DNA from: Rhizobium jaguaris
GTDB lineage: Bacteria > Pseudomonadota > Alphaproteobacteria > Rhizobiales > Rhizobiaceae
Reading direction: 5' to 3'
DNA: 64,000 bases
Assembly (NCBI RefSeq): GCF_003627755.1
Contig: NZ_CP032694.1
Span: forward strand, 3,525,501-3,589,500
The notes under the pieces were generated by a model. It was not told the origin of the DNA, ran no database searches, and saw nothing but the letters and a program-made list of their open reading frames with translations. A program made the position numbers and the translations under genes. The stretch's first letter is position 1, and the number at the start of each line of letters is the position of its first letter. Shown here in pieces: positions 1,057-18,388 of the stretch.

Positions 1057-1113
1057 GAGCATGATCTTGTCCGGAGCTTTCCGCTTCGCGGCTCTTCGGC
1101 CCGGATCATGCTC
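1057..1113. repeat. Palindromic intergenic element (GAGCATGATC...GATCATGCTC)
   Basis: GAGCATGATC at 1057-1066 is mirrored by GATCATGCTC at 1104-1113, with a GC-rich middle that can fold on itself. It lies between the convergent SDR gene and cheB and overlaps the cheB stop codon. Palindromes with these ends are scattered through rhizobial genomes. Here it could act as a bidirectional terminator or an mRNA-stabilising hairpin. Confidence 0.65.
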
Positions 1114-2203
1114 AGAATTTCTGCTGCGCCATCAATATCTCGCGGGCGATCTGTTCGAGCGGCACGACGCGATCGACGCCACCACGGGCGATTGCCTCCT
1201 TCGGCATGCCGAAAACGACGGAGGTCGCCTCGTCCTGGGCAACCGTGTAGGCACCGGCCTGTTTCATCTCGAACATGCCGCGCGCGCCGTCATCGCCCAT
1301 GCCGGTCATGATGACACCCATGGCATTCGATCCGGCCGCCCGTGCCGCCGAGCGGAAAAGCACGTCAACGGAAGGCCGGTGGCGCGACACCAGCGGCCCG
1401 GTTTTGACGGCCACATGGTAACGCGCACCCTGCCGCTCCAGCAGCATGTGGTTGTCGCCGGGGGCGATCAGCACGTGGCCGCGCAATACCGGATCGCCAT
1501 CGGCCGCTTCCTTCACTTCCACTTCGCAGAGGCTGTTCAGCCGCTTGGCGAAGGCGGCGGTAAACTTCTCCGGCATATGCTGGACGATGACCATGCCCGG
1601 CGCATTGGCTGGCAGCGCCTCCAGCATCTCGCGCAGCGCCTCGGTGCCGCCTGTCGAGGCGCCGACGCAGACCACCATCTCCGTCGTCTTCGCCATGGCG
1701 CGGCCGGTCGGCGGCGGTAGCATGGCGTCGGCCGTCAGCTTCTTGGCTGGTCCCGAAGCGGCTGCCGAGCGCGCCTCGGCCCGCCGGACACTCGGCAGCC
1801 TGGCATGCGACGCACTCTTGACTACCTCGCGGATGCGCATCGCCTCGTCAGCCAGATAATCGGCAGCGCCGATCCGTGGCTTCTGGATGATATCCACGGC
1901 GCCGGCTTCCAATGCCTGCAGCAAAGTCTCAGAACCCGCCTCCGTCAGCGACGAGCACATGACGACGGGGATTGGCCGCTGCGACATCAGCTTGCGCAGA
2001 AACGTGATACCGTCCATGCGCGGCATCTCGACATCCAGCGTGATGACGTCGGGTATCTCCTCCTGGATCTTGCGGGCGGCCATGAAGGGATCGGTCGCTA
2101 CCCCCATCACCTCGATTTCGGGGTCGTCCGACAGCAATGCGGCGAGCGTCTGACGCACGCTGGCCGAGTCGTCGATGATCAGGACACGGATTTTCTTTGG
2201 CAT
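1112..2203 (-). CDS. cheB: Chemotaxis response regulator protein-glutamate methylesterase CheB
   Basis: A protein of 363 residues with an N-terminal receiver domain, a linker and a C-terminal methylesterase domain. The receiver has acidic residues at D11-D12 and a phospho-acceptor D57 in [12 protein letters not shown]. The esterase has the catalytic Ser in [11 protein letters not shown], His in [10 protein letters not shown] and Asp in [11 protein letters not shown]. It removes methyl groups from, and deamidates, receptor glutamates, opposing CheR. Last gene of the minus-strand che operon, it starts 11 bases after the cheR stop. The ATG at 2203 follows AGGCAGG; a longer frame to 2326 would overlap cheR and adds non-conserved residues. 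Confidence 0.96.
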
Positions 2204-2214
2204 GATGACCTGCC

Positions 2215-3072
2215 TTAGAGTCGCTGGAAGACCGTGTTGGAAACCTGTTTCAGCGGCAAGTCGAAGCCGGTGATCGATTCCGAGTGGCCGATGAACATAT
2301 AGCCGCCGGACACCAGACAATCGCACAAACGCGAAAGGACGCCGGCTTGCGTCTGCTTGTCGAAATAGATGAGGACGTTGCGGCAGAAGATGAGGTGCAT
2401 GGCATCGCCCACCTGATATTTCTCATCCATCAGATTCATCCGGCCGAAGGCGATCTTCGAGCGCAGCCGCGGCGTAATGCGCACCTCGCGCTTGCCCGGC
2501 ACTTTGGCGGTCATCACATATTTGCGCTTCAGGTCGGCAGGAACCGGCAATACCATGTCTTCCATGTAGATACCGTTCCTGGCCGATTGCAAAACGTCGG
2601 TGCTGAGATCGGTCGCCAGGATCGCATAATCGTTTCCGCCTTCGCTTTCGGAGAATTCCTCCATCACCATCGCCATGGAATAAGGTTCAGCCCCGGTCGA
2701 GCAGGCGGCACTCCAGGCGCGCAGGCGGCGATGGCCGGCGCGCGTCAGCGCCGGCAGGGCCACAGCCTGCATGAAATCGAAGTGTTTGGCCTCGCGGAAG
2801 AAATCGGTCTTGTTGGTCGTCACCGCATCGATGAGATAGACCGATTCCTGTTCGAGGCCGCCATGATTGAACAGAAAGTCGCAGTAGTCGTCGAAGGATG
2901 TGATGCTGGTGGCGCGCAGGCGGCGGCGCAGCCGCCCTTCCAGCATCGTCAGCTTTGTCGACGGCATCTTGATGCCGCTGTAATCATAGATGAAACGCGC
3001 CAGCTTCTCGAAATTCCGCTTACTGATGCGGTCACTGATGCTTTGACTTTCCTGAACGGCAGCAGTTCCCAT
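2215..3072 (-). CDS. cheR: Chemotaxis protein methyltransferase CheR
   Basis: A protein of 285 residues. The N-terminal helical domain (about 20-95) contains YDYSGIKM and the basic [10 protein letters not shown] stretch. The Rossmann-type SAM domain follows, with [18 protein letters not shown] as the SAM-binding segment and [10 protein letters not shown] near residue 230. It methylates glutamates in receptor cytoplasmic domains using S-adenosylmethionine. It lies between cheW and cheB, with 22 bases separating it from cheW. The three receptors of this operon lack an obvious NWETF-type docking pentapeptide, so how CheR is recruited is open. Confidence 0.96.
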
Positions 3073-3094: not shown

Positions 3095-3592
3095 TTATGC
3101 AGCATGACCGGCGCGATGCGGATCGAGCGCGACGGTATCTTCTCGCGACAGCAGGCGGGCGAGATCGACGATGACGACAAACCCATTCTCCCGGCGTACG
3201 ACACCGGCGATATAGTCGGAACGCCAGCGAACGCCGATGTCGGGCGCCGCTTCGATCTGGTCGCGTCGGAAGGGCGTGACTTCAAAAACGCGGTCGGCGA
3301 CGAGGCCGAGCGTCAGCACTTTGGCCTCGATTGGAATGTCCAGCACCAACACCCGTGTATGCGAGGTCGGCACGGTCTTGGAGAGACCGAGCTTCAGCCG
3401 GAGATCGATGGTAGGCACGCCCTGCCCGCGCACATCGCGCAGGCCGAGCAGGTAATCAGGCCCGTTCGGAATCTTGAAAGCCTCGGCATAGTCGAGGATT
3501 TCGCGGACTACTTCGACGGGAACGGCGAAGACTTCCTCGCCGAGGCTGAAGGTCACGAATTGCGCTTCCAGAGCAGGTGCGGCCATAGTCAT
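3095..3592 (-). CDS. cheW: Chemotaxis coupling protein CheW (first of two)
   Basis: A single CheW domain of 165 residues. It begins with [20 protein letters not shown], the usual first strands of the double SH3-like barrel. It continues with [20 protein letters not shown], the canonical coupling-protein core. It links receptors to CheA in the signalling array. Its ATG overlaps the stop of the adjacent receptor gene (ATGA), indicating translational coupling. It is divergent in sequence from the second CheW at 9480-9995, so the two are not recent duplicates. Confidence 0.94.
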
Positions 3593-5400
3593 GCACTTTC
3601 CTTGAATTCGGCGTCGCCATCGTCGGGGCCGCCCATGGAGAGATCGAGGGCAAAGCCCTTGAGACGTGCCTGTTGCGCCTGAACCGTGGTGGGTTTCACC
3701 ACCGCCTTCGGCTGACGAGCGGTCGCCGCCGAAGCCCGGCCGGTCGACTTAGCTGCGGCCGTTCGGTTCTGGCGATTGGTCGATGTATCGACCTTGAAGA
3801 AGGCGATGGAGGCTTGCAGCTCTTCAGCCTGGGCCGCCAGCTCTTCCGAGGTCGCCGACATTTCTTCCGAGGCGCCGGCATTCTGCTGCGTCACCTTGTC
3901 GAGCTGCTGGATCGCCTCATTGATCTGGGCAGCCCCAATATCCTGCTCGCGGCAGGCAGCACTGATCTCGGAGACGAGTTCGGCGGTCTTTCGGATGTCC
4001 GGCACGAGGCGGCCGAGCATTTCACCGGCTTCGGCGGCGGCTGTGACGGTATCGCTCGACATCGAGCTGATCTCGGCGGCGGCGGATTGGCTGCGTTCGG
4101 CAAGCTTGCGCACTTCCGAGGCGACGACAGCAAAGCCCTTGCCGTGCTCACCGGCGCGCGCCGCTTCCACAGCTGCGTTCAGAGCGAGCAGATCGGTCTG
4201 ACGGGCAATCTCCTGGACGATGCCGATCTTTTCGGCGATTGTCCGCATGGCACTGACGGCGCGCGAAACAGCGTCGCCGCTTGCTTCCGCATCCTTGGCC
4301 GACTGACGGGCAATCTTTTCCGTCTGGGCGGCATTGTCCGCATTCTGCTTGATATTGGCTGCCATCTGTTCCATCGAGGCCGAGGCTTCTTCGGCCGATG
4401 CAGCCTGTTCGGTCGCGCCCTGCGACACCTGCTCCGAGCTTGCCGAAAGCTCCTGGCTGCCGGCCGAGACATTCTCGGATGCGGAAATGGCGTCGGCGAC
4501 AACGCCGCGAAGACGTTCGACCATTTGCTCCAGCGCCAGGCCGAGTACGTCCTTCTCGGACAGCGGCTTCGGCGTCACCATCAGATCGCCGTTGGAGATC
4601 TTCGTGGCGATATCGGCTGTGTTGCGCAGGTTCGCGGTCATACGCTGCATCGAATTGACGAGGTCGCGGATTTCGTCGTTGCTCTTGTGTTCGATCGTCT
4701 GGTTGAGATCGCCGATGCTGACGGCGTCGGCCAGACTGACGGCGCGCGTGAGGCCGCGGGAGATGTTCAGCAGGATCCAGATCGCAAAGGCGGAGGAAAC
4801 CACGGCAAGGCCGATCGCCATGCTGATCAGAAGGTTACGCGACTGCGCATATTGATCATTGGTGGACGAGTCGGTTGCGGCGACATCGCCGGTCACGGTG
4901 TCGTTGAGCTTCTTCAGCGTATCGAGCAACTGCGTGGTGATCGCCTGGCCATCGCCCATCGAGATCGCGCCCGCCTGGGTATCGGATTCCTGCGTATTCT
5001 GCTTGGCGAGGTCGGCGACCTTGTCCTGCAGCGGCGTCCAGCGGCTGTAAAGATCCGAGAAGCTCGCCATTGCGGCGCGGACGTTCGGATCCGCCGAGGC
5101 AACCAGCTTGCCTTCCAGCGTCCTGATCAGATCGCGCTGCTTGCTGATATCGTCGATATAGCCGGAGATCTTCGTCGGATCCGTATTGATGATCGCATCC
5201 TTCTCGGCGCGGATCGAACGCAGGACAGCGTCGGAAAGATCACTGGAGCTACGCAGGTCTGCCACCGGACCGGCGACCATCACGCTAATATCGTCGTTCA
5301 GCGAGGAAAGATTGAAGATGGAAATGGCCGCCATCGTGCAGGTCAGCAGCACGATGAAGCAGAATACCAAGCTGAGCTTGAGTTTGATCGTCAGACGCAT
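3589..5400 (-). CDS. Methyl-accepting chemotaxis protein with two HAMP units (receptor 1)
   Basis: A transmembrane receptor of 603 residues. TM1 is at about 8-30, followed by a periplasmic four-helix-type domain (31-188), TM2 at about 189-213, a first HAMP at 214-264 and a second HAMP-like unit at about 265-302 beginning [13 protein letters not shown]. The MCP signalling domain is at 303-540 with the hairpin tip [21 protein letters not shown] variable linker leads to the tail [18 protein letters not shown]. Ligand unknown. The signalling half is nearly identical to those of the next two genes. CCTCTTCAGGAG precedes the ATG. The 180-base gap upstream could hold its own promoter. Confidence 0.95.
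3791..4515 (-). repeat. Signalling-domain repeat copy 1 (in receptor 1)
   Basis: A block of about 725 bases encoding the MCP signalling domain. It recurs with no length change at 5795-6519 and 7959-8683. By eye the copies differ at scattered, mostly synonymous positions. Homology with copy 2 continues past this block through the last HAMP unit, to about 4640. Confidence 0.85.
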
Positions 5401-5580: not shown

Positions 5581-7512
5581 TTATGCGCCGTCGCGGAAAT
5601 CCTCGTCGCCAGCGTCAGGACCGCCCATCGACAGATCGAGGGCAAAACCCTGGGCACGAGCCTGCTGAGCTGCGACCGACTGGCTGGTGCGAGCGGCGGG
5701 TGCCGGCTTACGCTGCGCAGGGATGTGCGCTGCTTTAGTCATGGTCCTCGCAGCCGCCTTCTTCACTGCGGCGGGCTTGTGGCCGCTCGTCTCAACCTTG
5801 AAGAAGGCGATCGAGGTCTGAAGTTCCTCGGCCTGAGCCGCCAGTTCTTCCGAGGTCGCCGACATTTCTTCCGAGGCGCCGGCATTCTGCTGCGTCACCT
5901 TGTCGAGCTGCTGGATTGCCTCATTGATCTGGGCGGCCCCAATATCCTGCTCACGGCAGGCGGCGCTGATCTCGGAAACGAGTTCGGCGGTCTTTCGGAT
6001 GTCCGGCACGAGGCGGCCAAGCATTTCGCCGGCATCGGCGGCAGCCTTGACGGTGTCGCTCGACATCGAGCTGATCTCGGCGGCGGCAGACTGAGAGCGT
6101 TCGGCAAGCTTACGCACTTCCGAGGCGACGACAGCAAAGCCCTTGCCATGTTCGCCGGCGCGCGCCGCTTCCACAGCCGCGTTCAGCGCGAGCAGATCGG
6201 TCTGACGGGCGATCTCCTGGACGATGCCGATCTTTTCGGCGATTGTCCGCATGGCACTGACGGCGCGCGAAACAGCGTCGCCGCTTGCTTCCGCATCCTT
6301 GGCCGATTGACGGGCGATCTTTTCCGTCTGGGCGGCGTTGTCGGCATTCTGCTTGATATTGGCCGCCATCTGCTCCATCGAGGCCGAGGCTTCTTCGGCC
6401 GATGCAGCCTGTTCGGTCGCACCCTGCGACACCTGCTCCGAGCTTGCCGAAAGCTCCTGGCTGCCGGCCGAGACATTCTCGGATGCGGAAATGGCGTCGG
6501 CGACAACGCCGCGCAGCCGTTCGACCATCTGCTCCAGCGCCAGGCCGAGTACGTCCTTCTCGGACAGCGGCTTCGGCGTCACCATCAGGTCGCCGTTGGA
6601 AATCTGCGTGGCAATCTCAGCGGTCGCACGCAGGTTGGCGACCATGCTCTGCATCGCCAGACCCAACACGTCCTTGTCGGAGAGCGGCTTCACCGTGATG
6701 GAGAGATCGCCCATGGCGATGCGATCAGCCACCGCAGCGGTGTCGCGCAGGTTGGACGTCATGACGTTGACAGTGTCGATCAAGTCCTTGATCTCATCAT
6801 TGGTCTTGACCTCGACCTTCTGATTGAGATCGCCGAGTGCCACCGCCTTGGCAATGTTGGACACTTTGGATAGGCCACGATTGATGCCGAGCGTGATCCA
6901 GAAGGCCGCACCGATCGCTATGATCAATGCGATGCCGGACGCAATCGCCAGAAGCATCTTCGTGTCGGAATAGAGTTGGTCATTGGCCGCATCGGTTGTC
7001 GCCAGACCCTTCTTCTGGATTTCCACCAGGCTGTTGACCGCATCGGTCATCTGGTTGGTCAAGTCACGCAGTTCGCCAACCGAGAGGGCCTGAGCGCCAG
7101 CCTGATCGCCCTTGGCGTCAAGCGCTTGCATATCGGCGGAGCGCTGGCGGAATGTCTGGCCGAGCGACAGAAGCTTTTCCCAATAGGGCTTGCCTTCCGG
7201 CGAAGCAATGGCAAGGCCATCCTGCGCATTGGAGAACATCGTCTGTATATAGCCGTCGGACTCCTTGTAGAAGGCGGCGGTTTCAGATGCGACGCTGGTG
7301 AGCAACGCGTTCTTCTGCGCACGCACCGCATTGACTTCGGCAACATTGGCATTGAGCGCAAGCTGCAAGCGCTTGACCGGTCCCGCGACCATGGCACCGC
7401 TGGCGTCATTCAGCCGACCGAGGCTGACACTGCCATAGACGGCGATGCCGATCAAAAGCAGCGTCATGATGCCGAAGGCTAATGCCAATTTGAGCTTAAT
7501 GGAAAAACGCAT
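5581..7512 (-). CDS. Methyl-accepting chemotaxis protein with three HAMP units (receptor 2)
   Basis: A receptor of 643 residues. TM1 is at about 8-28, the periplasmic four-helix-type domain spans 29-184 and TM2 is at about 185-210. HAMP units follow at 212-262, 263-300 ([20 protein letters not shown]) and 301-340 ([20 protein letters not shown]), so units 2 and 3 are clear duplicates. The signalling domain has the canonical [20 protein letters not shown] tip, and the tail is [19 protein letters not shown] chose the ATG at 7512, where the membrane-anchor sequence starts; the open frame continues to 7674 without receptor-like sequence. The ligand domain differs from receptors 1 and 3 although all share the fold type. 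Confidence 0.95.
5795..6519 (-). repeat. Signalling-domain repeat copy 2 (in receptor 2)
   Basis: Second copy of the 725-base signalling-domain block. It matches copy 1 also in the adjoining HAMP unit (to about 6644), which makes receptors 1 and 2 the closest pair. Confidence 0.85.
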
Positions 7513-7738
7513 TGCTATATCCCCGAAAAGAAGACGGAAAATCTGGTGCTGCGGACCGCCGTCCCGGATCAGGGGCGTCGCGCCGAAATGAGAGAGCTCG
7601 CACATCGGAAAGAGCGATCCATCCGCACTCTCCGTTACAAGACATCTCACGAACCACGACGCCAACGCATACACACGTTGGGGATATCAACCAGCCGAGG
7701 CCTGAGACAGCCTCGGCAGAACTCACGAAGGGAAGCGC

Positions 7739-9442
7739 TTAGGCGCTTTCGCGGAAGTCCGCGTCGCCGGCGTCCGGACCACCCATGGAGAGATCGAGGG
7801 CAAAGCCCTTGGCCCGAGCCTGCTGCGCGGCGACGGTATGAGCCGGATTGACGGTCGCAGACGTGGTGCGACGATTAACCAGCGGCGCGGCGGTAGCCTT
7901 ATGAGCGGCCGCCTTGGCGGGCGACTTCCTGGCGGTGATTTTGCTCCCTGCAGTATCGACCTTGAAGAAGGCGATCGAGGTCTGCAGTTCCTCGGCCTGG
8001 GCCGCCAGCTCTTCCGAGGTTGCCGACATTTCTTCCGAGGCGCCGGCATTCTGCTGCGTCACCTTGTCGAGCTGCTGGATTGCCTCATTGATCTGGGCGG
8101 CACCGATATCCTGCTCGCGGCAGGCCGCACTGATCTCGGAGACGAGTTCGGCGGTCTTGCGGATGTCCGGCACGAGGCGGCCAAGCATTTCGCCGGCATC
8201 GGCGGCGGCCTTGACGGTATCGCTCGACATAGAGCTGATCTCGGCGGCGGCCGATTGGCTGCGTTCAGCGAGCTTGCGCACTTCCGAGGCGACAACCGCA
8301 AAGCCTTTGCCATGTTCACCGGCACGCGCCGCTTCCACAGCCGCGTTCAGCGCGAGCAAATCGGTCTGGCGGGCGATCTCTTGCACGATGCCGATCTTCT
8401 CGGCGATTGTCCGCATGGCGCTGACGGCGCGGGTCACCGCATCGCCGCTGGCTTCAGCATCTTTGGCCGACTGACGGGCGATCTTTTCCGTCTGGGCGGC
8501 ATTGTCCGCGTTCTGCTTGATATTGGCTGCCATCTGCTCCATCGAGGCCGAGGCTTCTTCGGCCGATGCAGCCTGTTCGGTCGCGCCCTGCGACACCTGC
8601 TCCGAGCTTGCCGAAAGCTCCTGGCTACCCGAGGAGACGTTGTCAGCCGCGCCCAGCGCATCGGCGACCACGCCGCGAAGACGCTCGATCATGACATTGA
8701 CGTTGCCGAGCAACTCACCGATTTCATCCTGGTTGGTGATCTCTGCGGTCTTCGTCAGATCGCCTTCGGAGACTTCGCGAACCACAGTGTTGGCACGGGC
8801 CAGGCCCTTGCTGATCGTGTTGGCGATCCAATAGGCGGTCACGGCGGCAATCAGCAGCGCTGTGGCGGCAGCAATGAGCATCGTCAGGCGAGTGCTCCCA
8901 TACTGGACGTCGGCGCCGTCGTCGGCTTCTTTCATGTGCTGCTTCTCGGTGGCAATCATACCGTCGAGGGCATCATCGATATCGCGGTTAGCCTTGCGAG
9001 CATCGGTGACGGAGATATTGTTGGCACCTTCCTTGTCGCCGGCCTTCAGGAGCTGACGAACCTGATCGTCAGCCTGGATGAATCTTGCAGCCATGGACTG
9101 GACGTTGGCCCAGCGCTCGCGGCTCTGTTCGGTGGCGATCTTGTCGACGGCGACAAACGTATCAGCAAGTTCCTTACGCGCCGCATCGCCGGCGGCAACC
9201 GCCGCCTTGGCTTCATCATCATTGCGCGCGGCAAGCAGGTTCTTCTGCTGGCGGATAATTTCAAGTTCGGAGATGTTAACCTGCTGAGTGAGCTCCAGAC
9301 GCGCGACGGGGCCTTCCAGCACATTGCTGATGGTATCGTTGAACGAGCTGAGACTCATGATGCCGTAGCCGGCCGTGCCTATCAGCATGAGAATGATGAA
9401 GGCGAACGCCCCCACCAGCTTGGCTTTGATCGTTAGACGCAT
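7739..9442 (-). CDS. Methyl-accepting chemotaxis protein with one HAMP unit (receptor 3)
   Basis: A receptor of 567 residues. TM1 is at about 8-29, the periplasmic four-helix-type domain at 30-184, TM2 at 185-207, a single HAMP at 209-259 and the MCP signalling domain after that. The C-terminal tail [18 protein letters not shown] is shared with its two neighbours. The start at 9442 follows GAGGGAACC and matches the MRLTIK opening of receptor 1; the open frame reaches 9649 but that part overlaps cheW. It lies between the second cheW and receptor 2 in the same orientation, consistent with tandem duplication. Confidence 0.95.
7959..8683 (-). repeat. Signalling-domain repeat copy 3 (in receptor 3)
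   Basis: Third copy of the 725-base signalling-domain block. Similarity falls off at its 5' end (about 8640-8690), where this receptor goes straight into its only HAMP unit. Confidence 0.85.
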
Positions 9443-9479
9443 CGTCTTGGTTCCCTCGATATTCAGCCGGCGGCATTGG

Positions 9480-9995
9480 TCAGGCGGAAAGCGCCTTGTT
9501 TTGCCGGGCGGAAAAAATCGCCTGCAGATTGGGGAGAATGATGAATTCCCCACCGCGCTTGACCAGGCAGTTGATGTAGTCGGGACGCCAACGCATCCCC
9601 ACGCTAGGCGGCGCTTCGCTGGAAGCTTTTGCAAGTGTGGTGACTTCATTCACCTTGTCAGTCCGCAGACCCACGAGCGTGGGCTCATCCTGCAGGTCGA
9701 GTTCGATAACGATGATACGGCTATCAATCGTCGCTTCCGCCGCCTCCATGCCGAAGGCGAGACGGAGATCGGCAAGGGGGATCACCTTGCCGCGAAAGTT
9801 GATGACGCTGCCCACGAAGGGCTGGCTGCCGGGAACGGCAGTTTCCGGCAGAATATCCAGGATCTCCTGAACCATGACCGCCTCGAGGGCGAAGGTTTCG
9901 CCATTGAGATCGAAGGTCAGAACCTCGAGCTCGCCGTCGTCATTCCAATGAGTGCCATTCCAGAGATTGTCGAGTTTCATGGCTGCTTCGCTCAT
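9480..9995 (-). CDS. cheW: Chemotaxis coupling protein CheW (second copy)
   Basis: A protein of 171 residues with a CheW domain from about residue 23 ([20 protein letters not shown]) to about 160. The core is [21 protein letters not shown] short N-terminal extension, with WNGTHWNDD, precedes the domain. It couples receptors to CheA. Its start overlaps the cheA stop by four bases (ATGA), so translation is probably coupled to cheA. Having two different CheW proteins in one operon could allow alternative array contacts. Confidence 0.94.
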
Positions 9996-12016
9996 CCCGC
10001 TGCACGCAGATGCGCCTCCTGTTGCTGGCCGACTGTGACCAGATGCACGACGTCGAGAATGAGGGCGACACTGCCGTCGCCGAGGATCGTGGCCCCGGAG
10101 AAATGCGCGACGTCATTGTGCAGCTTCGACATGGATTTGATCACCGTCTGATGGTCGCCGATGATCTGGTCGACGACCAGGCCGACCCGCTCCGTGCCGG
10201 TCGAGATGACCACGACCTTCTGATGGACATCCGGCTTGGTGCCGGTGCGGAACACGTCCCGCAGCCGCAGGAACGGCACCAGGCTGTCGCGCAGCGAAAT
10301 GAAACTGCGGCCTCGCGAACGCAGGTCCTCTTCCAGCGACAGTTCCAGGCATTCCTCGACCGCCGACAGCGGAATGACGTAGCGTCCGGCGCCAACGCGT
10401 ACGAGCAGGCCATCGATGATGGCGAGCGTCAACGGAATGCGCAGCGATACATCCGAGCCCTGCCCCGGCAGGCTGACGATATCAATGGCGCCCCGCAGCG
10501 CCTCGACCGTTTTCTTCACCACATCCATGCCGACGCCGCGGCCAGAGAGATTGGTGATCTGCGCCGCCGTCGAAAAGCCGGGCGCGAAGATGAGCTGCAG
10601 CAGCTCGGCGTCGCTGAGCTGCTGACCCGGCTGGATCAGCCCGGACGATTCCGCCTTGGCACGAACGCGCTCGCGATTGATGCCGCGGCCGTCATCCTTG
10701 ATCGAGATGATCACCTCGCCGCCCGATTGCCGCGCCGACAATGTAATGGTTCCTGCTTCGGCCTTGCCGGCAGCGAAGCGCTCTTCCGGTGGCTCCAGGC
10801 CATGGTCGATGGAATTGCGCACCAGATGCACAAGCGGATCGGCAAGCCGCTCGATAACGGTCTTGTCGACTTCCGTCGTCTCACCTTCGGTGACGAGCTC
10901 GATGACCTTGCCGGTCTCGCGCGCCAGATCATGGACCAGACGACGGAAACGGCTGAAGAGGCTCGCGACAGGCACCATGCGCAGCACCATCATCGTGTCG
11001 CGCAGCTCGCCGGACAGGCGCTCGATCTCCTCCGACACCGACCTCAGCCCGATATCGGCGCTAGCGCTGGCCAACTGACTGAGGCGCGATTGCGCAATGA
11101 CCAGCTCCCCGACACGATCCATGAGTTCGTCGAGGCGCTCTGCCGGGACGCGAACGCTTTCCGTAACTTTTGCCTGACGCTGGTCGGCAACGGGCGCCAC
11201 CTGTGCCGGCGCCTCCCGTTTGACCGGTACAATCTCGCCAGCGGCCGGCGCGACGGGCGCCGCCGGGGCCGCCGAGACAACAGCCTCCTTCGGCGTCGCA
11301 ACAACCGCGTTGCCATCGATTTCCTCGACATCGAGCTGCATGTCGTCCATGACGAAGATGAAGACGTCGTCGATGGCTGAACGCGGCTGCTCGGTCGTGA
11401 CTGTCACGTCCCAGGACAGATAGAGTTCCGTCGGCACCAGCGCGCTCAGCGACGGAATGGTCGATGTGTTTGCGACGACGCGGCATTCACCGAGATCACG
11501 CAGCTCGTCCAGCAGCCCCAGCGGATTGGTGCCATTGATCATCGCGTTCAGCGGCAGGCTGAAGCGGATACGCCAGGTCTTGCGCTTGTCCGTCACTACG
11601 GATGCAGGCGCAGCCGCGGTAACCCACTGCGCCGGCTTTGCAGCGCCGCCGACTGCCGCTTGCAACTGTGCCAGAAGACGCTGGCTGGTGGCGTCATGAT
11701 CGCCATTGGGATCGTCGACGAGGGCGCGCATATGATCCTGCGCATCGAGAACGGCGGCGACGAGTTCGGCCGTTGCCGGCGCTTCGCCCTTACGGACGCG
11801 ATCGAAGGCGGTTTCGCAATGATGGGTGAAAGCGGCGAGCGCATCGAAGCCGAACATCGAGCCCGAGCCCTTCAGCGTATGAAGGCCGCGAAACACCGCG
11901 TCGATCAGGGCCTTGTCGTCAAGCTGGTGCGTGAGATCGAGAAGACCCGCCTCGATCTGCTCCAGGCATTCGGCGGCCTCGATACGGAAGACGGCGATAG
12001 GATCGGTCGAGCTCAT
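9992..12016 (-). CDS. cheA: Chemotaxis sensor histidine kinase CheA
   Basis: A protein of 674 residues. The Hpt domain carries phospho-acceptor H46 in GLHTLKGSGS. A regulator-binding-like region lies at about 140-235 and an Ala/Pro linker at about 240-275. The dimerisation domain begins near SVRVPAERLDELMDRVGELV. The kinase domain has VRNSIDHGLE (N box), DDGRGINRE (G1) and GRGVGMDVV (G2). The C-terminus is a CheW-like regulatory domain. It autophosphorylates in response to receptors and passes phosphate to CheY and CheB. It overlaps both cheY upstream and cheW downstream by four bases. Confidence 0.97.
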   Translation of the reverse strand: MSSTDPIAVFRIEAAECLEQIEAGLLDLTHQLDDKALIDAVFRGLHTLKGSGSMFGFDALAAFTHHCETAFDRVRKGEAPATAELVAAVLDAQDHMRALVDDPNGDHDATSQRLLAQLQAAVGGAAKPAQWVTAAAPASVVTDKRKTWRIRFSLPLNAMINGTNPLGLLDELRDLGECRVVANTSTIPSLSALVPTELYLSWDVTVTTEQPRSAIDDVFIFVMDDMQLDVEEIDGNAVVATPKEAVVSAAPAAPVAPAAGEIVPVKREAPAQVAPVADQRQAKVTESVRVPAERLDELMDRVGELVIAQSRLSQLASASADIGLRSVSEEIERLSGELRDTMMVLRMVPVASLFSRFRRLVHDLARETGKVIELVTEGETTEVDKTVIERLADPLVHLVRNSIDHGLEPPEERFAAGKAEAGTITLSARQSGGEVIISIKDDGRGINRERVRAKAESSGLIQPGQQLSDAELLQLIFAPGFSTAAQITNLSGRGVGMDVVKKTVEALRGAIDIVSLPGQGSDVSLRIPLTLAIIDGLLVRVGAGRYVIPLSAVEECLELSLEEDLRSRGRSFISLRDSLVPFLRLRDVFRTGTKPDVHQKVVVISTGTERVGLVVDQIIGDHQTVIKSMSKLHNDVAHFSGATILGDGSVALILDVVHLVTVGQQQEAHLRAAG

Positions 12017-12381
12017 CTTCCAAGTACCTTCCTGACGATCTTGACGAGGTTTTCCGGATCGAAAGGCTTGGTCAGCCAGCCGGTGGCACCGGCCGCCTTG
12101 GCGCGCGCCTTGAGATCGGCATCGGATTCCGTCGTCAGGAAGATGATCGGAACGCCCATATGAGCCGGCAGCTTGCGGAGCTCTTCGATCATGGTCAGCC
12201 CATCCATAACGGGCATATTGAGGTCGGTCACGATAAGATCGAACTGTCCAGCCTTGGCCTTGTCGAGGCCTTCGGCGCCGTTCACCGCTTCGGTGACCTC
12301 GTAGCCGGCATTGGTAAGCGTCACCTTGGTCGTCAGACGGATGCTGGCGGAATCATCGACAGTCAAAATCTTCGCACTCAT
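12013..12381 (-). CDS. cheY: Single-domain chemotaxis response regulator CheY
   Basis: A stand-alone receiver of 122 residues. It has D9-D10, phospho-acceptor D53 in IVTDLNMPVMDG, a conserved Thr in IIFLTTES and Lys in WLTKPFDPENL. It receives phosphate from CheA; the output target (flagellar motor, a phosphate sink or a non-motility output) is not shown by the sequence. It is the only CheY-like gene in the locus, whereas the main rhizobial che operon usually has two. Its ATG overlaps the STAS gene stop (ATGA) and its stop overlaps cheA. Confidence 0.95.
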   Translation of the reverse strand: MSAKILTVDDSASIRLTTKVTLTNAGYEVTEAVNGAEGLDKAKAGQFDLIVTDLNMPVMDGLTMIEELRKLPAHMGVPIIFLTTESDADLKARAKAAGATGWLTKPFDPENLVKIVRKVLGR

Positions 12382-12701
12382 GGATGTACCTCTTGATGGA
12401 GCCAGAATTGCGCGTCCTCTGCCGTAAAGGCGTCGATGAACCCACCCCTCTGCAAGACTTTCAAAACAGAACCACTAGCCGGAGAAGAAAGGCGAAGTGT
12501 TTTGCCGGAGGCCTTCGCCTCGATCCGCGCTGACTCGACCAACTGAACGAAGCTCAAATCGGCTTCCGCATCGTCAGCGACTTCGAGGACGAGCATTTTG
12601 CTGTCCTGAAACTTCAAAGTCATACTTTGATGAATTTCGGAAATGTTCCTGATATTCAGGGCATTTGGCAGAGAAATAGATTCGGAATATTTATCGGACA
12701 T
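12378..12701 (-). CDS. STAS-domain protein, first gene of the che operon (CheS-like position)
   Basis: A small protein of 107 residues with a STAS-like pattern. A leading strand (ESISLPNALNI) is followed by an alternating helix/strand core, including KMLVLEVADDAEADLSFVQL, and a closing segment LKVLQRGGFIDAF. The canonical phosphorylatable Ser/Thr of SpoIIAA-type proteins is not obvious. In Sinorhizobium the gene in this place before cheY1 is called cheS, whose product helps CheA act on CheY1. Equivalence here is inferred from position and size. I chose the ATG at 12701; the frame can also be opened by a TTG at 12740. Confidence 0.75.
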   Translation of the reverse strand: MSDKYSESISLPNALNIRNISEIHQSMTLKFQDSKMLVLEVADDAEADLSFVQLVESARIEAKASGKTLRLSSPASGSVLKVLQRGGFIDAFTAEDAQFWLHQEVHP

Positions 12702-13045
12702 TTCAAATCTGGCCCCGCTAGCAAATAAATACTTGAGCAATAACTATTGAATCTCATGTCAACCTTAACAGGCAGTAAATGCAGGTTGTATAATCCGCCA
12801 TTTCGAAGGCTGTGAATTCTCACCCGGCATAAATGACCACTAAAATTGCATGGTGAAAAATGTGATTGAGATTCAGGTAGTTAAATCGAAAAAACTAAAA
12901 CACCGCTTTTCCAGTGAGCGAATTTTAACCCTACCGACGAAAGCCCGGGATGCAACGCTTACGAGTCCCGAGAATTTACCGGAATTTTCCATCCCACATT
13001 TAAGAGTTGAGTCAAACAAGCCTTTCTCCAAGTAAAGGGACAGAC
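12702..13045. promoter_or_regulatory. AT-rich divergent promoter region of the che locus
   Basis: This 344-base gap separates the minus-strand che operon from the plus-strand coiled-coil gene and is clearly more AT-rich than the genes around it. On the plus strand TTAACA (12765-12770) and TATAAT (12789-12794) are 18 bases apart, a fair sigma-70 promoter for the rightward gene. On the minus strand TTGACA lies at 12762-12757, but its -10 partner is poor. No ORF or strong hairpin is evident. Basis is motif reading only. Confidence 0.45.
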
Positions 13046-14794
13046 ATGGAAAATGGAACAGCTCTGGCACGCCGCATCGATCGCCCACGGGGGTTCCCGC
13101 AGGCAATGGATGTCAGCCGTACCCTGGAAGCGGCGCGCACCGAGGTTGAGAAACGCTTTCTCGACGGCGGCGCTGTTCTCTTGTCGGTGATGGAGGTTCT
13201 GAACCAACTGTTGTCATCCCTCGACCGGTTGACCAAGGCGCTCGACGGCGATGGCGCCAGCGACACCACGGCTGATCTGTTGCAGACGGTGAGCGGCCTG
13301 TCCGACCTGCCCGGCCTCGAAGCCAAGCGCCAGAAGAATTTCGCCGTGCTGGCCGAGGCCGGCACCAAGCTGCACGCACATGTCACCGATATGCAGGAGA
13401 CCATGCGTTACCTGCGCACCTTCGCAGTGACAGTGAAGATTACCGGTGCGGGCATTGCCGAATTTGCTGGTTTTGCGGAGGAGATCCTGGAGCGCATTCA
13501 CTCCGGCACCAATGAAGTCAACACCTTCGCCCAGCAGCTCGGCGCGCTCGAACGCGACCTGAAGGTCGCAATGACCTTTGGCGCCACCACCGCGAAGGCC
13601 TATGACCGCACCGTTCCGCAAGTGGTCGCAGCGCTCGAAAAGGATGCCCGCACTATCGCCGCCCACCGCAGGGAACTCGCAGTGATCGCCGCCGAGGTTG
13701 GCGCCATCGCCCGCGGCGTGCAAAGCAAGGTCGCAACCACCCTTTCGGCTCTGCAGATCGGCGACATCACCCGCCAGCGCATCGAGCACGTGCAAAGCGC
13801 CTTCACTTTTCTCGAAGAGTTTCTCGCGAGCAACGAAGGGAGCAAGCTCGATGCCGACGCCCGCCAGCGGCTCGCAAATGTCATTCATCATCTGACGGCG
13901 GCGCAGATGCGGGAGATGGTCGCTGACTTCCAGCGGGAGTCGGGCAATGTCGTCAAGACGATCGCCAGCTTCAGCAACGACACCCGGGAAATCCTGAAAC
14001 TGCGCGACGCCATGAAGCCCGAGGGAAGCAGCGATGGCAATGTGCTGCGTGCATTGGAACAGAGCGTCTCCGCTGCTCACACCATCGTCAAACAGGTCGA
14101 AACTGCCCGCGTGCAGGCCGATGGCATCAGCCAATCGACGCTCGGCACCGCCTCGAACCTGCTGCACCGCATCGAAACCATCCGCGCCGTCAAGACGGAT
14201 ATTCACTATATGGCGCTGAACACCAATCTGCGCTGCAGTCGCATGGGCGAGGAAGGCCGCTCGATCAACGTCGTCACCGCCGAACTGCGCATCTTTGCGG
14301 CAAAGCTCGATGAATCCGCTGACGCAATTGTCGCCGGTCTCGCAACTCTCGAAACGGCGGCCGGCCGCGTCGCCTCTGGCCAGGAGGCTTCGGATCATCG
14401 CCTCGACGAGAGGCTGATCTCGGCCGTCGACACCATCCGCTCCGCCGCCAATATCATGGACGGCGAGTTGGAGACGCTGTCGGAACATGGCCGTGAAGTG
14501 GCAAACAAGATCATGCTGTCGATCGGCAAGCTCGACTTCCAGCGCGACCTCGGCGAGACCCTGGCAAATTGTGCCGACACGCTCGACGACATGGCCGGCA
14601 GCGAAATGGCCGATGTGAGCGATTTGGAAGAGATCATCGCGCCGCTCAGCGCGCGCATCTTCAAGATCTACACGATGGTGCAGGAGCGCAATATCCATAG
14701 AGACATCATCGCCATGGACGATAGCGTTGCACCAGCCGCTGCCGCACCTGCCAAGACGGATGACGAAGATCTTTTCGCCGACGCTCTATTCTAA
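13046..14794 (+). CDS. Long helical chemotaxis-associated protein with a CheZ-like D-x-x-x-Q motif
   Basis: A protein of 582 residues with no membrane segment, predicted almost entirely helical. It is rich in Ala, Leu, Glu and Arg heptads and resembles the cytoplasmic bundle of receptors, but the conserved hairpin tip is missing. Residues 237-247 read LQIGDITRQRI (D240, Q244). This resembles the CheZ active-site segment, where Asp and Gln are four apart. The last residues, DDEDLFADALF, recall the acidic, Phe-ended CheY-binding tail of CheZ. It could be a phosphatase or scaffold for the neighbouring CheY; that is inference. It diverges from the che operon. The ATG at 13046 follows AAAGGGA. Confidence 0.6.
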   Translation: MENGTALARRIDRPRGFPQAMDVSRTLEAARTEVEKRFLDGGAVLLSVMEVLNQLLSSLDRLTKALDGDGASDTTADLLQTVSGLSDLPGLEAKRQKNFAVLAEAGTKLHAHVTDMQETMRYLRTFAVTVKITGAGIAEFAGFAEEILERIHSGTNEVNTFAQQLGALERDLKVAMTFGATTAKAYDRTVPQVVAALEKDARTIAAHRRELAVIAAEVGAIARGVQSKVATTLSALQIGDITRQRIEHVQSAFTFLEEFLASNEGSKLDADARQRLANVIHHLTAAQMREMVADFQRESGNVVKTIASFSNDTREILKLRDAMKPEGSSDGNVLRALEQSVSAAHTIVKQVETARVQADGISQSTLGTASNLLHRIETIRAVKTDIHYMALNTNLRCSRMGEEGRSINVVTAELRIFAAKLDESADAIVAGLATLETAAGRVASGQEASDHRLDERLISAVDTIRSAANIMDGELETLSEHGREVANKIMLSIGKLDFQRDLGETLANCADTLDDMAGSEMADVSDLEEIIAPLSARIFKIYTMVQERNIHRDIIAMDDSVAPAAAAPAKTDDEDLFADALF

Positions 14795-17211: not shown

Positions 17212-18388
17212 GTCAGCTGAATCGGAAATTCGTGTCATAAGCTGTTGTCGACCTTCTGACAGAAGCGTTTGACGGCGGCGAGAATGTCGTCTGCCGATTT
17301 GGTCCACCGATACGGCTTGGGATTTTCGTTGTGGCGCTCGATGAAGCTTTTGATGTCGGCTTCGAGTTGAGCTGTCGAAGTATGGACGCCACGACGTAAT
17401 TGCTTGCGGGTTAATTCCGCAAACCAGCGTTCGACTTGGTTGATCCATGAAGCCGAGGTTGGGGTGAAGTGCACGTGGTAGCGTGGCCGCCGCAGCAGCC
17501 AGTTCTTGATCGATGCAGTTTTGTGCGTTGCATAGTTGTCCATCACGATATGCACGTCCAAATCGGGCGGCACATTCGCATCGATCTGCTTCAGGAAGTC
17601 GAGGAACTCGGTGGCCCGATGCCGCTTGTAGCATTTGCCGATGACAAAGCCGGAGGCGACATCCAGAGCTGCAAACAACGTCGTTGTGCCGTGGCGAACA
17701 TAAGAATGGGTACGCCGTTCAGGCACGCCAGGCATCATCGGCAGGACTGGCTGCTCGCGATCGAGTGCCTGGATTTGGCTCTTCTCGTCCACACTGAGAA
17801 CCAGCGCCCGATTGGGAGGCGACAGATAAAGACCGACGATGTCGCGGACCTTATCGACGAACAGGGGATCGCTGGACAGCTTGAACGTCTCAGTGCGATG
17901 CGGCTGCAGGCCGAAGGCGTTCCATATCCGGCGGATCGTCGTGTGCGAAAAGCCGGCGACTCCTGCCATCGAGCGGATCGACCAGTGGGTCGCATCGCTT
18001 GGCGTAGAACGCAGCGTGCGCTCGATCACAGCAGCAATCTGATCATCGTCGATCGTTCGGGGCCGGCCAGGGCGAACTTCGTCGAGCAGGCCATCGAGCC
18101 GATCTTTAAGAAAGCGCCGTCGCCATTTGCCAACCGTATGTTCATGTACGCCAAGTTCGCTCGCAACGGTCTTGCTCGCAATCCCGTCGGCGCAGCGAAG
18201 AATGATCCGGCACCGCTCAGACATGGAACGAGCAACGCGATGTTTACGAACCTGTCGCTCTAGATATTCCCGCTCCGCCTCGCTCAAAATCAGGGGTGCC
18301 GTCGGTCGGCCAGTCGCATTTGCCATTGCTCAACCTCCCATGAAGAGGCCAAGCGTACAATGTAATGAACTTCTGTTCCAGGTGACTA
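17210..18388. mobile_element. IS630-family insertion sequence with TA target duplication
   Basis: A 1,175-base element (17212-18386) flanked by TA at 17210-17211 and 18387-18388, the target-site duplication expected for the IS630/Tc1/mariner group. The outer ends are imperfect inverted repeats of about 27 bases. Counting the flanking TA, 21 of 29 aligned positions match (left TAGTCAGCTGAATCGGAAAT, right complement TAGTCACCTGGAACAGAAGT). One transposase gene fills it. Its insertion breaks a Sel1 gene whose two halves join perfectly with one TA retained. Confidence 0.93.
17235..18326 (-). CDS. IS630-family transposase
   Basis: A protein of 363 residues. An N-terminal helix-turn-helix region (about 20-75, with SELGVHEHTVGKWRRRFLKD) is followed by a second winged-helix segment with GRPRTI and a DDE catalytic domain. 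The catalytic acids are visible as D in VLSVDEKSQIQ, D in HIVMDNYATHK and E in INQVERWFAELTRK. The reading frame is intact and needs no programmed frameshift, so the element may still be active. It is oriented opposite to the gene it interrupts. Confidence 0.95.
   Translation of the reverse strand: MANATGRPTAPLILSEAEREYLERQVRKHRVARSMSERCRIILRCADGIASKTVASELGVHEHTVGKWRRRFLKDRLDGLLDEVRPGRPRTIDDDQIAAVIERTLRSTPSDATHWSIRSMAGVAGFSHTTIRRIWNAFGLQPHRTETFKLSSDPLFVDKVRDIVGLYLSPPNRALVLSVDEKSQIQALDREQPVLPMMPGVPERRTHSYVRHGTTTLFAALDVASGFVIGKCYKRHRATEFLDFLKQIDANVPPDLDVHIVMDNYATHKTASIKNWLLRRPRYHVHFTPTSASWINQVERWFAELTRKQLRRGVHTSTAQLEADIKSFIERHNENPKPYRWTKSADDILAAVKRFCQKVDNSL

Follow-up and report, generated by a model that had tools for sequence, protein, structure and literature searches.

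The protein encoded divergently to the che operon in the window, that is, in the whole 64,000-nucleotide stretch of the 8.0-Mb genome of Rhizobium jaguaris analysed here, is probably a soluble CheY-P phosphatase of an F8-class Che2 system, a remote homologue of CheZ carried on a chemoreceptor-like helical bundle. A catalytic role for this protein, termed DIV, is proposed on the grounds of its homology and the invariance of its putative active-site residues. CheY would be the substrate on which the C-terminal tail docks, the receptor-type region would attach the protein to the chemosensory array, and the chain would be organised as a pseudo-dimer. DIV may also sequester CheY-P or serve as a scaffold without catalysis. 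The new element would be a remote CheZ relative outside PF04344 that works in a CheZ-like manner.

The DIV frame opens with an ATG at 13046 and closes with a stop codon ending at 14794, giving the 582 residues that the earlier note had assigned to it. The translation contains D240-I-T-R-Q244 within LQIGDITRQRI and terminates in DDEDLFADALF, both as described in that note. Its account of DIV as helical and soluble agrees with the AlphaFold2 model (55-row alignment, mean pLDDT 87.3, pTM 0.67), which is helical except for the ends and short breaks, and with the lack of any membrane-like stretch (top 19-residue hydropathy of 1.38). The closest database protein, with 97% identity, also derives from Rhizobium jaguaris. 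Pfam detects no sensor domain in DIV, the NCBIfam search returned receptors and chance names only, and a PDB sequence search with alignment A4 gave no match. Apart from CheZ, chemoreceptors are the sole clear sequence relation of DIV. Fold searches with the 582-aa model and with that of a 157-aa relative matched TTYH channels, pore-forming proteins, receptors, LSD1, PI3K and others. A confident match to an unrelated fold, named in the earlier note as an argument against its reading, did not emerge; the matches are generic helical bundles alone. As for the four-helix bundle of CheZ, both models are helical, and no CheZ is among the rows listed for either search.

DIV lies divergent to an operon with a single CheY, as the earlier note had stated. 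On the minus strand, the operon runs in the order STAS, CheY, CheA, CheW, three MCPs, CheW, CheR and CheB; the first four proteins and one of the MCPs were searched with Pfam, and the others are named from their sequences (Table 1). The accessory Che2 cluster of R. leguminosarum, described as F8-class with the type-34H receptors mcrABC, contains the same gene set, cheY-A-W-three receptors-cheW-R-B (PMC8429497, PMC7617929), and the DIV orthologue in strain 3841 (locus L074) is likewise divergent to the operon. Compared with the window, the published cluster, delimited as RL4036 to RL4028, omits the STAS gene and the DIV gene. By gene order, the numbers in strain 3841 would be RL4038 for the DIV orthologue and RL4037 for the STAS gene. 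In a transposon study, RL4037 is classed as growth-defective when hit (PMC5118466). An effect on bacteroid differentiation has been reported for Che2 of Rhizobium (PMC7617929), in a paper whose main text contains neither the word CheZ nor the word phosphatase.

Table 1. Positions of the genes and of the DIV segments discussed, numbered from the first letter of the window.
Feature	Position	Strand	Basis
STAS-domain protein, first gene of the divergent operon	12378..12740	-	PF13466 E 6.7e-4, below cut-off
CheY, proposed substrate	12013..12381	-	PF00072 E 2e-29
CheA	9992..12016	-	Hpt, H-kinase_dim, HATPase_c and CheW domains
CheW	9480..9995	-	PF01584 E 6e-28
Chemoreceptor (MCP)	7739..9649, real start probably near 9442	-	Named from sequence
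Chemoreceptor (MCP)	5581..7674	-	PF00015 E 3e-29 and HAMP for 5581-7509
Chemoreceptor (MCP)	3589..5400	-	Named from sequence
Second CheW	3095..3592	-	Named from sequence
CheR	2215..3072	-	Named from sequence
CheB	1112..2326	-	Named from sequence
DIV, 582-aa protein	13046..14794	+	ORF and translation; relatives found by search
Residues 237-248, QIGDITRQRIEH, CheZ-like motif helix	13754..13789	+	Q237, D240, R243, Q244, R245, E247 and H248 invariant in 55/55
D240 codon	13763-13765	+	
Q244 codon	13775-13777	+	
Residues 339-472, degenerate chemoreceptor signalling hairpin	14060..14461	+	PF00015 E 2e-4; 43/55 relatives; model helices 333-399 and 401-448
Residues 496-506, LDFQRDLGETL, putative second degenerate CheZ-like unit	14531..14563	+	hhalign alignment with QFQDITRQ
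Residues 542-551, YTMVQERNIH, conserved signature of the linker that precedes the tail	14669..14698	+	T543, M544, E547 and R548 invariant in 55
Residues 572-582, DDEDLFADALF, acidic Phe-ending tail	14759..14791	+	54/55 relatives end in [LFM][FL]; low model confidence

The gene context recurs in other genomes. Among 80 loci from named genomes, which are close relatives because the best 80 of 572 were taken, the STAS, CheY and CheA genes adjoin DIV in 74, and 73 of these also have CheW, L125 lying at a contig edge. The DIV frame is kept in five Rhizobium loci where the operon is lost or survives only as fragments of STAS, CheY or CheB (L056, L084, L089, L101 and L116); the contig of the remaining one, L115, is too short to judge. 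In order-level genomes, 16 of 20 loci lie within a che cluster, and in ten of these, L038-L047, the gene immediately follows cheB; outside such clusters, L029 and L030, likewise from Rhizobium, have remnants, and L034 and L035 have no che genes within about 7 kb. From this context, DIV is almost certainly a dedicated che component. Of the five named genomes that lack the operon, two have an altered tail (a substitution in L084 and a frameshift in L089), versus two of the 74 with it (Fisher p 0.018, with the tail classes set after seeing the tails); an association between tail damage and operon loss is suggestive only. A few kb from the che genes, the window also holds a 363-aa ORF (17235-18326, minus strand), which we take to resemble an IS630-type transposase.

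The motif DXXXQ is situated in helix 237-261 of the AlphaFold2 model. The earlier note had made its case dependent on conservation of D240, Q244 and the tail among orthologues, and all of these persist in remote ones. D240 and Q244 are invariant in 21/21 relatives and again in 55/55 aligned relatives down to 17% identity, and an acidic aromatic tail with a [LFM][FL] end is found in 54 of the 55. The alignment of 55 proteins has 14 invariant columns (G42, L45, Q237, D240, R243, Q244, R245, E247, H248, N392, T543, M544, E547 and R548), seven of which fall within residues 237-248; G239, T242, Y542, H551 and F582 are among those conserved in at least 90%. Such conservation of the motif is more than chance. 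The string GD..RQR is present in 97 of 100 loci (20 plus the 80 from named genomes); the exceptions are L153 (the same gene as L178), reading LQIHDITRQR, L169, which keeps the D and the Q, and L154, whose match spans profile positions 289-515 only. Relatives of DIV occur in at least 27 of 297 genomes of the order, at least 16 of 61 of the family and at least 6 of 385 of the class; these tallies, which include the genome carrying the window, are lower bounds, at most 4, 22 and 3 candidates, respectively, having been scored per genome.

Direct comparison with CheZ gives a mixed picture. Pfam CheZ (PF04344) has no match in DIV (E up to 1), in the 55 relatives or in the genome. DIV was rejected as a plain PF04344 member for this lack of a match and for the IG that replaces FQ before the catalytic Asp. 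In CheZ, AXXFQ directly precedes DXXXQ and its FQ is described as strongly conserved (PMC7750401); DIV has A235-L-Q-I-G239 at this place, with G239 in at least 90% of the 55 relatives, and the residues before the Asp in remote relatives are FQ, YD, FE or similar. The CheZ set used here comprises the 20 best-matching loci, all alphaproteobacterial, and E. coli CheZ. The active-site block of alphaproteobacterial CheZ reads FQDITGQRITKVV, close to IGDITRQRIEHV in DIV, and D-I-T-x-Q-R-I-x-x-V is common to DIV and the consensus. DIV further resembles CheZ in carrying D...Q on a long helix, in its acidic amphipathic C-terminal tail, which is similar to the CheZ end QVDDLLDSLGF, in its che-cluster location, and in a profile link via intermediates. 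Unlike CheZ, DIV lacks the Pfam match, has IG for FQ before the Asp and R for G before the Gln, is 582 aa long, compared with about 210-240 aa, and includes a receptor-type hairpin, a YTM..ER..H linker and a probable second degenerate unit.

In a PSSM of the 21 CheZ blocks, DIV scores 9.3 and its close relatives up to 15.0, with 8.7 for the best unrelated ORF among 2541; remote DIV members are close to zero or negative, and 5 of 21 relatives have their best window at a place other than the motif. Whole-length hhalign of the DIV family against CheZ is weak (prob 9.9, P 0.0032), with D240 and Q244 paired with the CheZ Asp and Gln, and a second, unrelated alignment elsewhere is nearly as good (P 0.006). 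Sliding 81-column windows are the better guide, the hhalign P-values being single comparisons. Of 51 family windows, the best against CheZ lies around the motif (prob 84.8, P 6.5e-6, score 38.5); the maxima of the control windows are 25.5 for 25 MCP windows and 26.1 for 31 CheA windows. An HMM of DIV alone finds 0/21 CheZ at E<=0.1, and a CheZ HMM finds 0/55 DIV members at E<=1e-3 and 13 at E<=1.

The relation to CheZ becomes clearer through remote relatives. The A3 profile, covering only residues 196-262 in 21 rows, matched in at least 32 of 299 Pseudomonadota genomes at E<=1e-3, with up to 20 candidates scored per genome. From these matches, with genomes G754 and G764 left out, loci L170-L199 were read: L170-L179 are DIV-type, and the other 20, L180-L199, are remote proteins with lengths of 157-699 aa. 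The tail, the Y.M signature and the che context were all absent from the A3 query. The last two residues are LF, FF or MF in 19 of the 20 remote proteins and EF in L186, and the signature Y.M..[EQ]R..[HL] is present in 13 and missing in 7. Among 20 neighbourhoods (L200-L219, two of them DIV-type), 12 contain CheA, or CheB plus CheR, and 8 do not. Ten of the remote proteins were scanned with Pfam, and five are chemoreceptors in which the module lies behind the signalling domain (L180, L181, L184, L190 and L196; PF00015 E 7e-15 to 1.5e-30). Each of these five has an N-terminal hydrophobic stretch together with the CheZ-like motif helix and an xLF tail; L180 also matches Pfam CheZ at E 8e-4, below the cut-off. 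Other remote proteins have a layout of roughly 570 aa as in DIV, and L187 (157 aa) and L192 (176 aa) are minimal versions. The smallest version (L187:1321-1791, minus strand) is flanked in L206 by cheY on one side and cheA on the other. A search with it found 12 proteins, and the three with a source name are each a 'hypothetical protein' of Mariprofundales.

Nineteen windows from the remote proteins align both with CheZ (prob 97.0, P 9.5e-11) and with DIV (prob 97.6, P 3.2e-12). For the HMMs A5 and w2, the remote windows were drawn from the A3 matches by a pattern requiring Q..D...Q, which 19 of 20 fit (L186 was dropped), so the invariance of Q..D...Q within A5 is by construction. The w2 HMM, built from remote relatives without CheZ or DIV, recovers 20/21 CheZ at E<=1e-3 (database size 5000), and A5, which includes five DIV members, recovers 19/21; neither matches any of the 21 control MCPs or 11 CheA. 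E. coli CheZ is missed by w2 (E 0.79) and A5 (E 4.0), and no HMM used here reached it. Conversely, the CheZ HMM finds 6 of the 20 remote relatives at E<=1e-3. For the motif helix, distant homology to CheZ is shown: weak with the DIV family on its own, strong via INTERMEDIATES. Together, the profile links and the recurrence of tails and che context in remote matches favour the CheZ-like interpretation of the earlier note.

The C-terminal part of DIV probably contains a second, degenerate version of the motif unit. When DIV 440-582 is aligned by hhalign with the C-terminal 110 residues of 19 remote relatives (prob 97.2, P 3.9e-11), LDFQRDLGETL pairs with the QFQDITRQ position, and YTM..ER..H is aligned as well. 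An internal-repeat test of DIV 180-275 against 440-582 is weak (prob 10.7). Long-type relatives carry a second copy without the Gln (MDFHDPIKKGTDHV in L182). CheZ is reported to act as a dimer of hairpins (PMC7750401), and an active and a degenerate CheZ-like unit in one chain hence suggest that DIV is a pseudo-dimer.

The statement in the earlier note that DIV lacks the receptor hairpin tip proved wrong. Pfam MCPsignal (PF00015) matches residues 339-472 with E 2e-4 and 21.7 bits, below the cut-off of 34.6; 43/55 relatives match at E<=0.01, the best at 1.2e-8, and N392 and G401 are conserved. The region forms helices 333-374, 376-399 and 401-448 in the AlphaFold2 model, and the best PDB sequence match of DIV is the chemoreceptor 6s18 (E 1e-4). 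DIV thus shares a degenerate hairpin with the chemoreceptor signalling domain and differs from it in the score under the Pfam cut-off, the missing membrane segment, and the additional motif helix and tail. Soluble chemoreceptors exist, so the lack of a membrane segment or sensor domain is not decisive against receptor identity. In the che1 cluster, a receptor-like ORF (L254 4075-5790) matches the DIV profile at positions 266-520, in the bundle/hairpin region only, and has no match to the motif and CheZ profiles. DIV as an ordinary soluble receptor only was rejected, since this receptor-like ORF lacks a motif or CheZ match.

Other proteins that end chemotactic signals were also considered. The earlier note had seen no recognisable CheC, CheX or CheZ in the operon. 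For CheZ and CheX (PF13690), the absence extends to the whole genome as judged by Pfam; for CheC (PF04509), it is qualified by a 14-position match elsewhere in the genome, below the cut-off at E 0.2. A CheC/CheX type was rejected for DIV, neither PF04509 nor PF13690 having a match in it. Rhizobia are said to encode no CheZ, Azorhizobium excepted (PMC8429497), and the known rhizobial routes of signal ending are CheS with a CheY sink, and CheT. CheT of Sinorhizobium/Agrobacterium is reported to carry DXXXQ, to have a CheZ-like predicted structure, to speed the dephosphorylation of one CheY and to associate with CheR in a complex (PMC12654446). In the present genome, the che1 cluster contains a CheT-like ORF, named by its place after cheD (L253:3214-3603, plus strand, 129 aa), with D...Q (DLAVQ) and the end DFDFF. 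The preceding CheD (L253:2642-3196, plus strand) ends in NTIEFF, and aromatic C-termini recur among the che proteins of this genome. DIV resembles CheT as a rhizobial che-cluster protein with DXXXQ. In contrast to DIV, the CheT-like ORF is short, belongs to the che1 cluster and has no detectable sequence relation to DIV, giving E above 100 with the HMMs A2, A5, w2 and CheZ.

Two further points speak against the CheZ-like reading as such: CheY-P might be handled by the CheT-like gene of the che1 cluster, and some Rhizobium genomes retain the DIV gene without the Che2 operon. Beyond these, the bundle that makes up most of DIV, its chemoreceptor-type hairpin and the best PDB match to a chemoreceptor would fit a degenerate soluble chemoreceptor or adaptor in the Che2 array, which binds CheY-P as a sink, localiser or scaffold without dephosphorylating it; phosphatase activity of DIV is, after all, a prediction. 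However, D240 and Q244 are invariant in a bundle that is mostly variable, the link to CheZ runs through the motif helix and not through the hairpin, and the receptor-like ORF of che1 shares with DIV the bundle/hairpin region alone. A receptor or adaptor of this kind is considered unlikely. A resemblance arising by chance, in which the conserved helix of an unrelated bundle happens to read D...Q and an acidic tail is added, draws on the failure of the DIV-only HMM to reach CheZ and on background helices that score close to DIV in the CheZ PSSM, but it is highly improbable in view of the motif invariance across the family, the tails and che context recurring in matches found without them, and the profile links that hold against MCP and CheA controls.

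The partner of DIV could also differ from CheY, the tail of a CheZ-like protein serving as a tether for CheR or CheB, or the protein acting as the phosphatase of another response regulator. A CheR-binding pentapeptide can form the C-terminus of receptors, with an aromatic residue at position -4 in the consensus. The reported complex of CheT with CheR (PMC12654446) and the persistence of DIV in some Rhizobium genomes without the Che2 operon would suit such a partner, and the IEFF end of CheD in this genome shows that tails of this type also occur outside CheY phosphatases. The DIV tail, however, is acidic and amphipathic like the end of CheZ and lacks an aromatic at position -4, and in 74 of the 80 loci its gene has cheY as a neighbour; a partner other than CheY is given a low probability.

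In CheZ, a Gln holds the attacking water in the active site of CheY. For DIV as a phosphatase, a similar course may be envisaged: the acidic Phe-ending tail would dock on CheY, and D240 and Q244, one turn apart on the long helix, would then enter the CheY active site, with the Gln holding the attacking water in a CheZ-like manner. The receptor-type hairpin 339-472 may hold DIV at the receptor/CheA/CheW array, and the active unit may have the degenerate one near 496-506 as its partner, so that a single chain would mimic the CheZ dimer.

Matches of this type also occur in other Pseudomonadota. The A5 HMM, with up to 13 candidates scored per genome, matches in at least 150 of 398 Pseudomonadota genomes at E<=1e-3, and Pfam CheZ in 147 at E<=1e-5; 81 genomes have both, 69 A5 only, 66 CheZ only and 182 neither. 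A5 also finds true CheZ, as in four of four matches that overlapped Pfam CheZ loci (picked by eye because their genomes recurred), so some genomes counted under both have a single gene matched twice. Every one of the 30 best A5 matches, 14 of which are outside A5, ends in [LFMI]F, and the Y.M signature is present in 25; the background for this end is 1/362 long ORFs, spurious frames included, 0/21 MCPs and 0/11 CheA. In the genome carrying the window, the DIV gene is the only A5 match at E<=1. If all weak matches hold, the CheZ-type candidates would rise from 147 to 216 of the 398 genomes. A broader reading, held tentatively and somewhat short of even confidence, is that DIV represents a second, unnamed CheZ-type phosphatase lineage, widespread in Pseudomonadota and often receptor-fused or receptor-derived. 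Receptor arrays would then carry their own CheY-P phosphatase, the type of roughly 570 residues being a single-chain pseudo-dimer with an acidic tail, and the lineage would have been missed on account of this frequent tie to receptors. Among the papers listed in searches of an open-licence library, no title or abstract beginning describes the DIV family or receptor-fused CheZ modules, which does not in itself prove novelty.

Many alphaproteobacterial chemosensory systems have no recognised CheY-P phosphatase to end their signals. A CheZ-like module in or beside the receptors would explain signal ending in F8-class systems such as Che2 of Rhizobium, and makes it testable with one gene.
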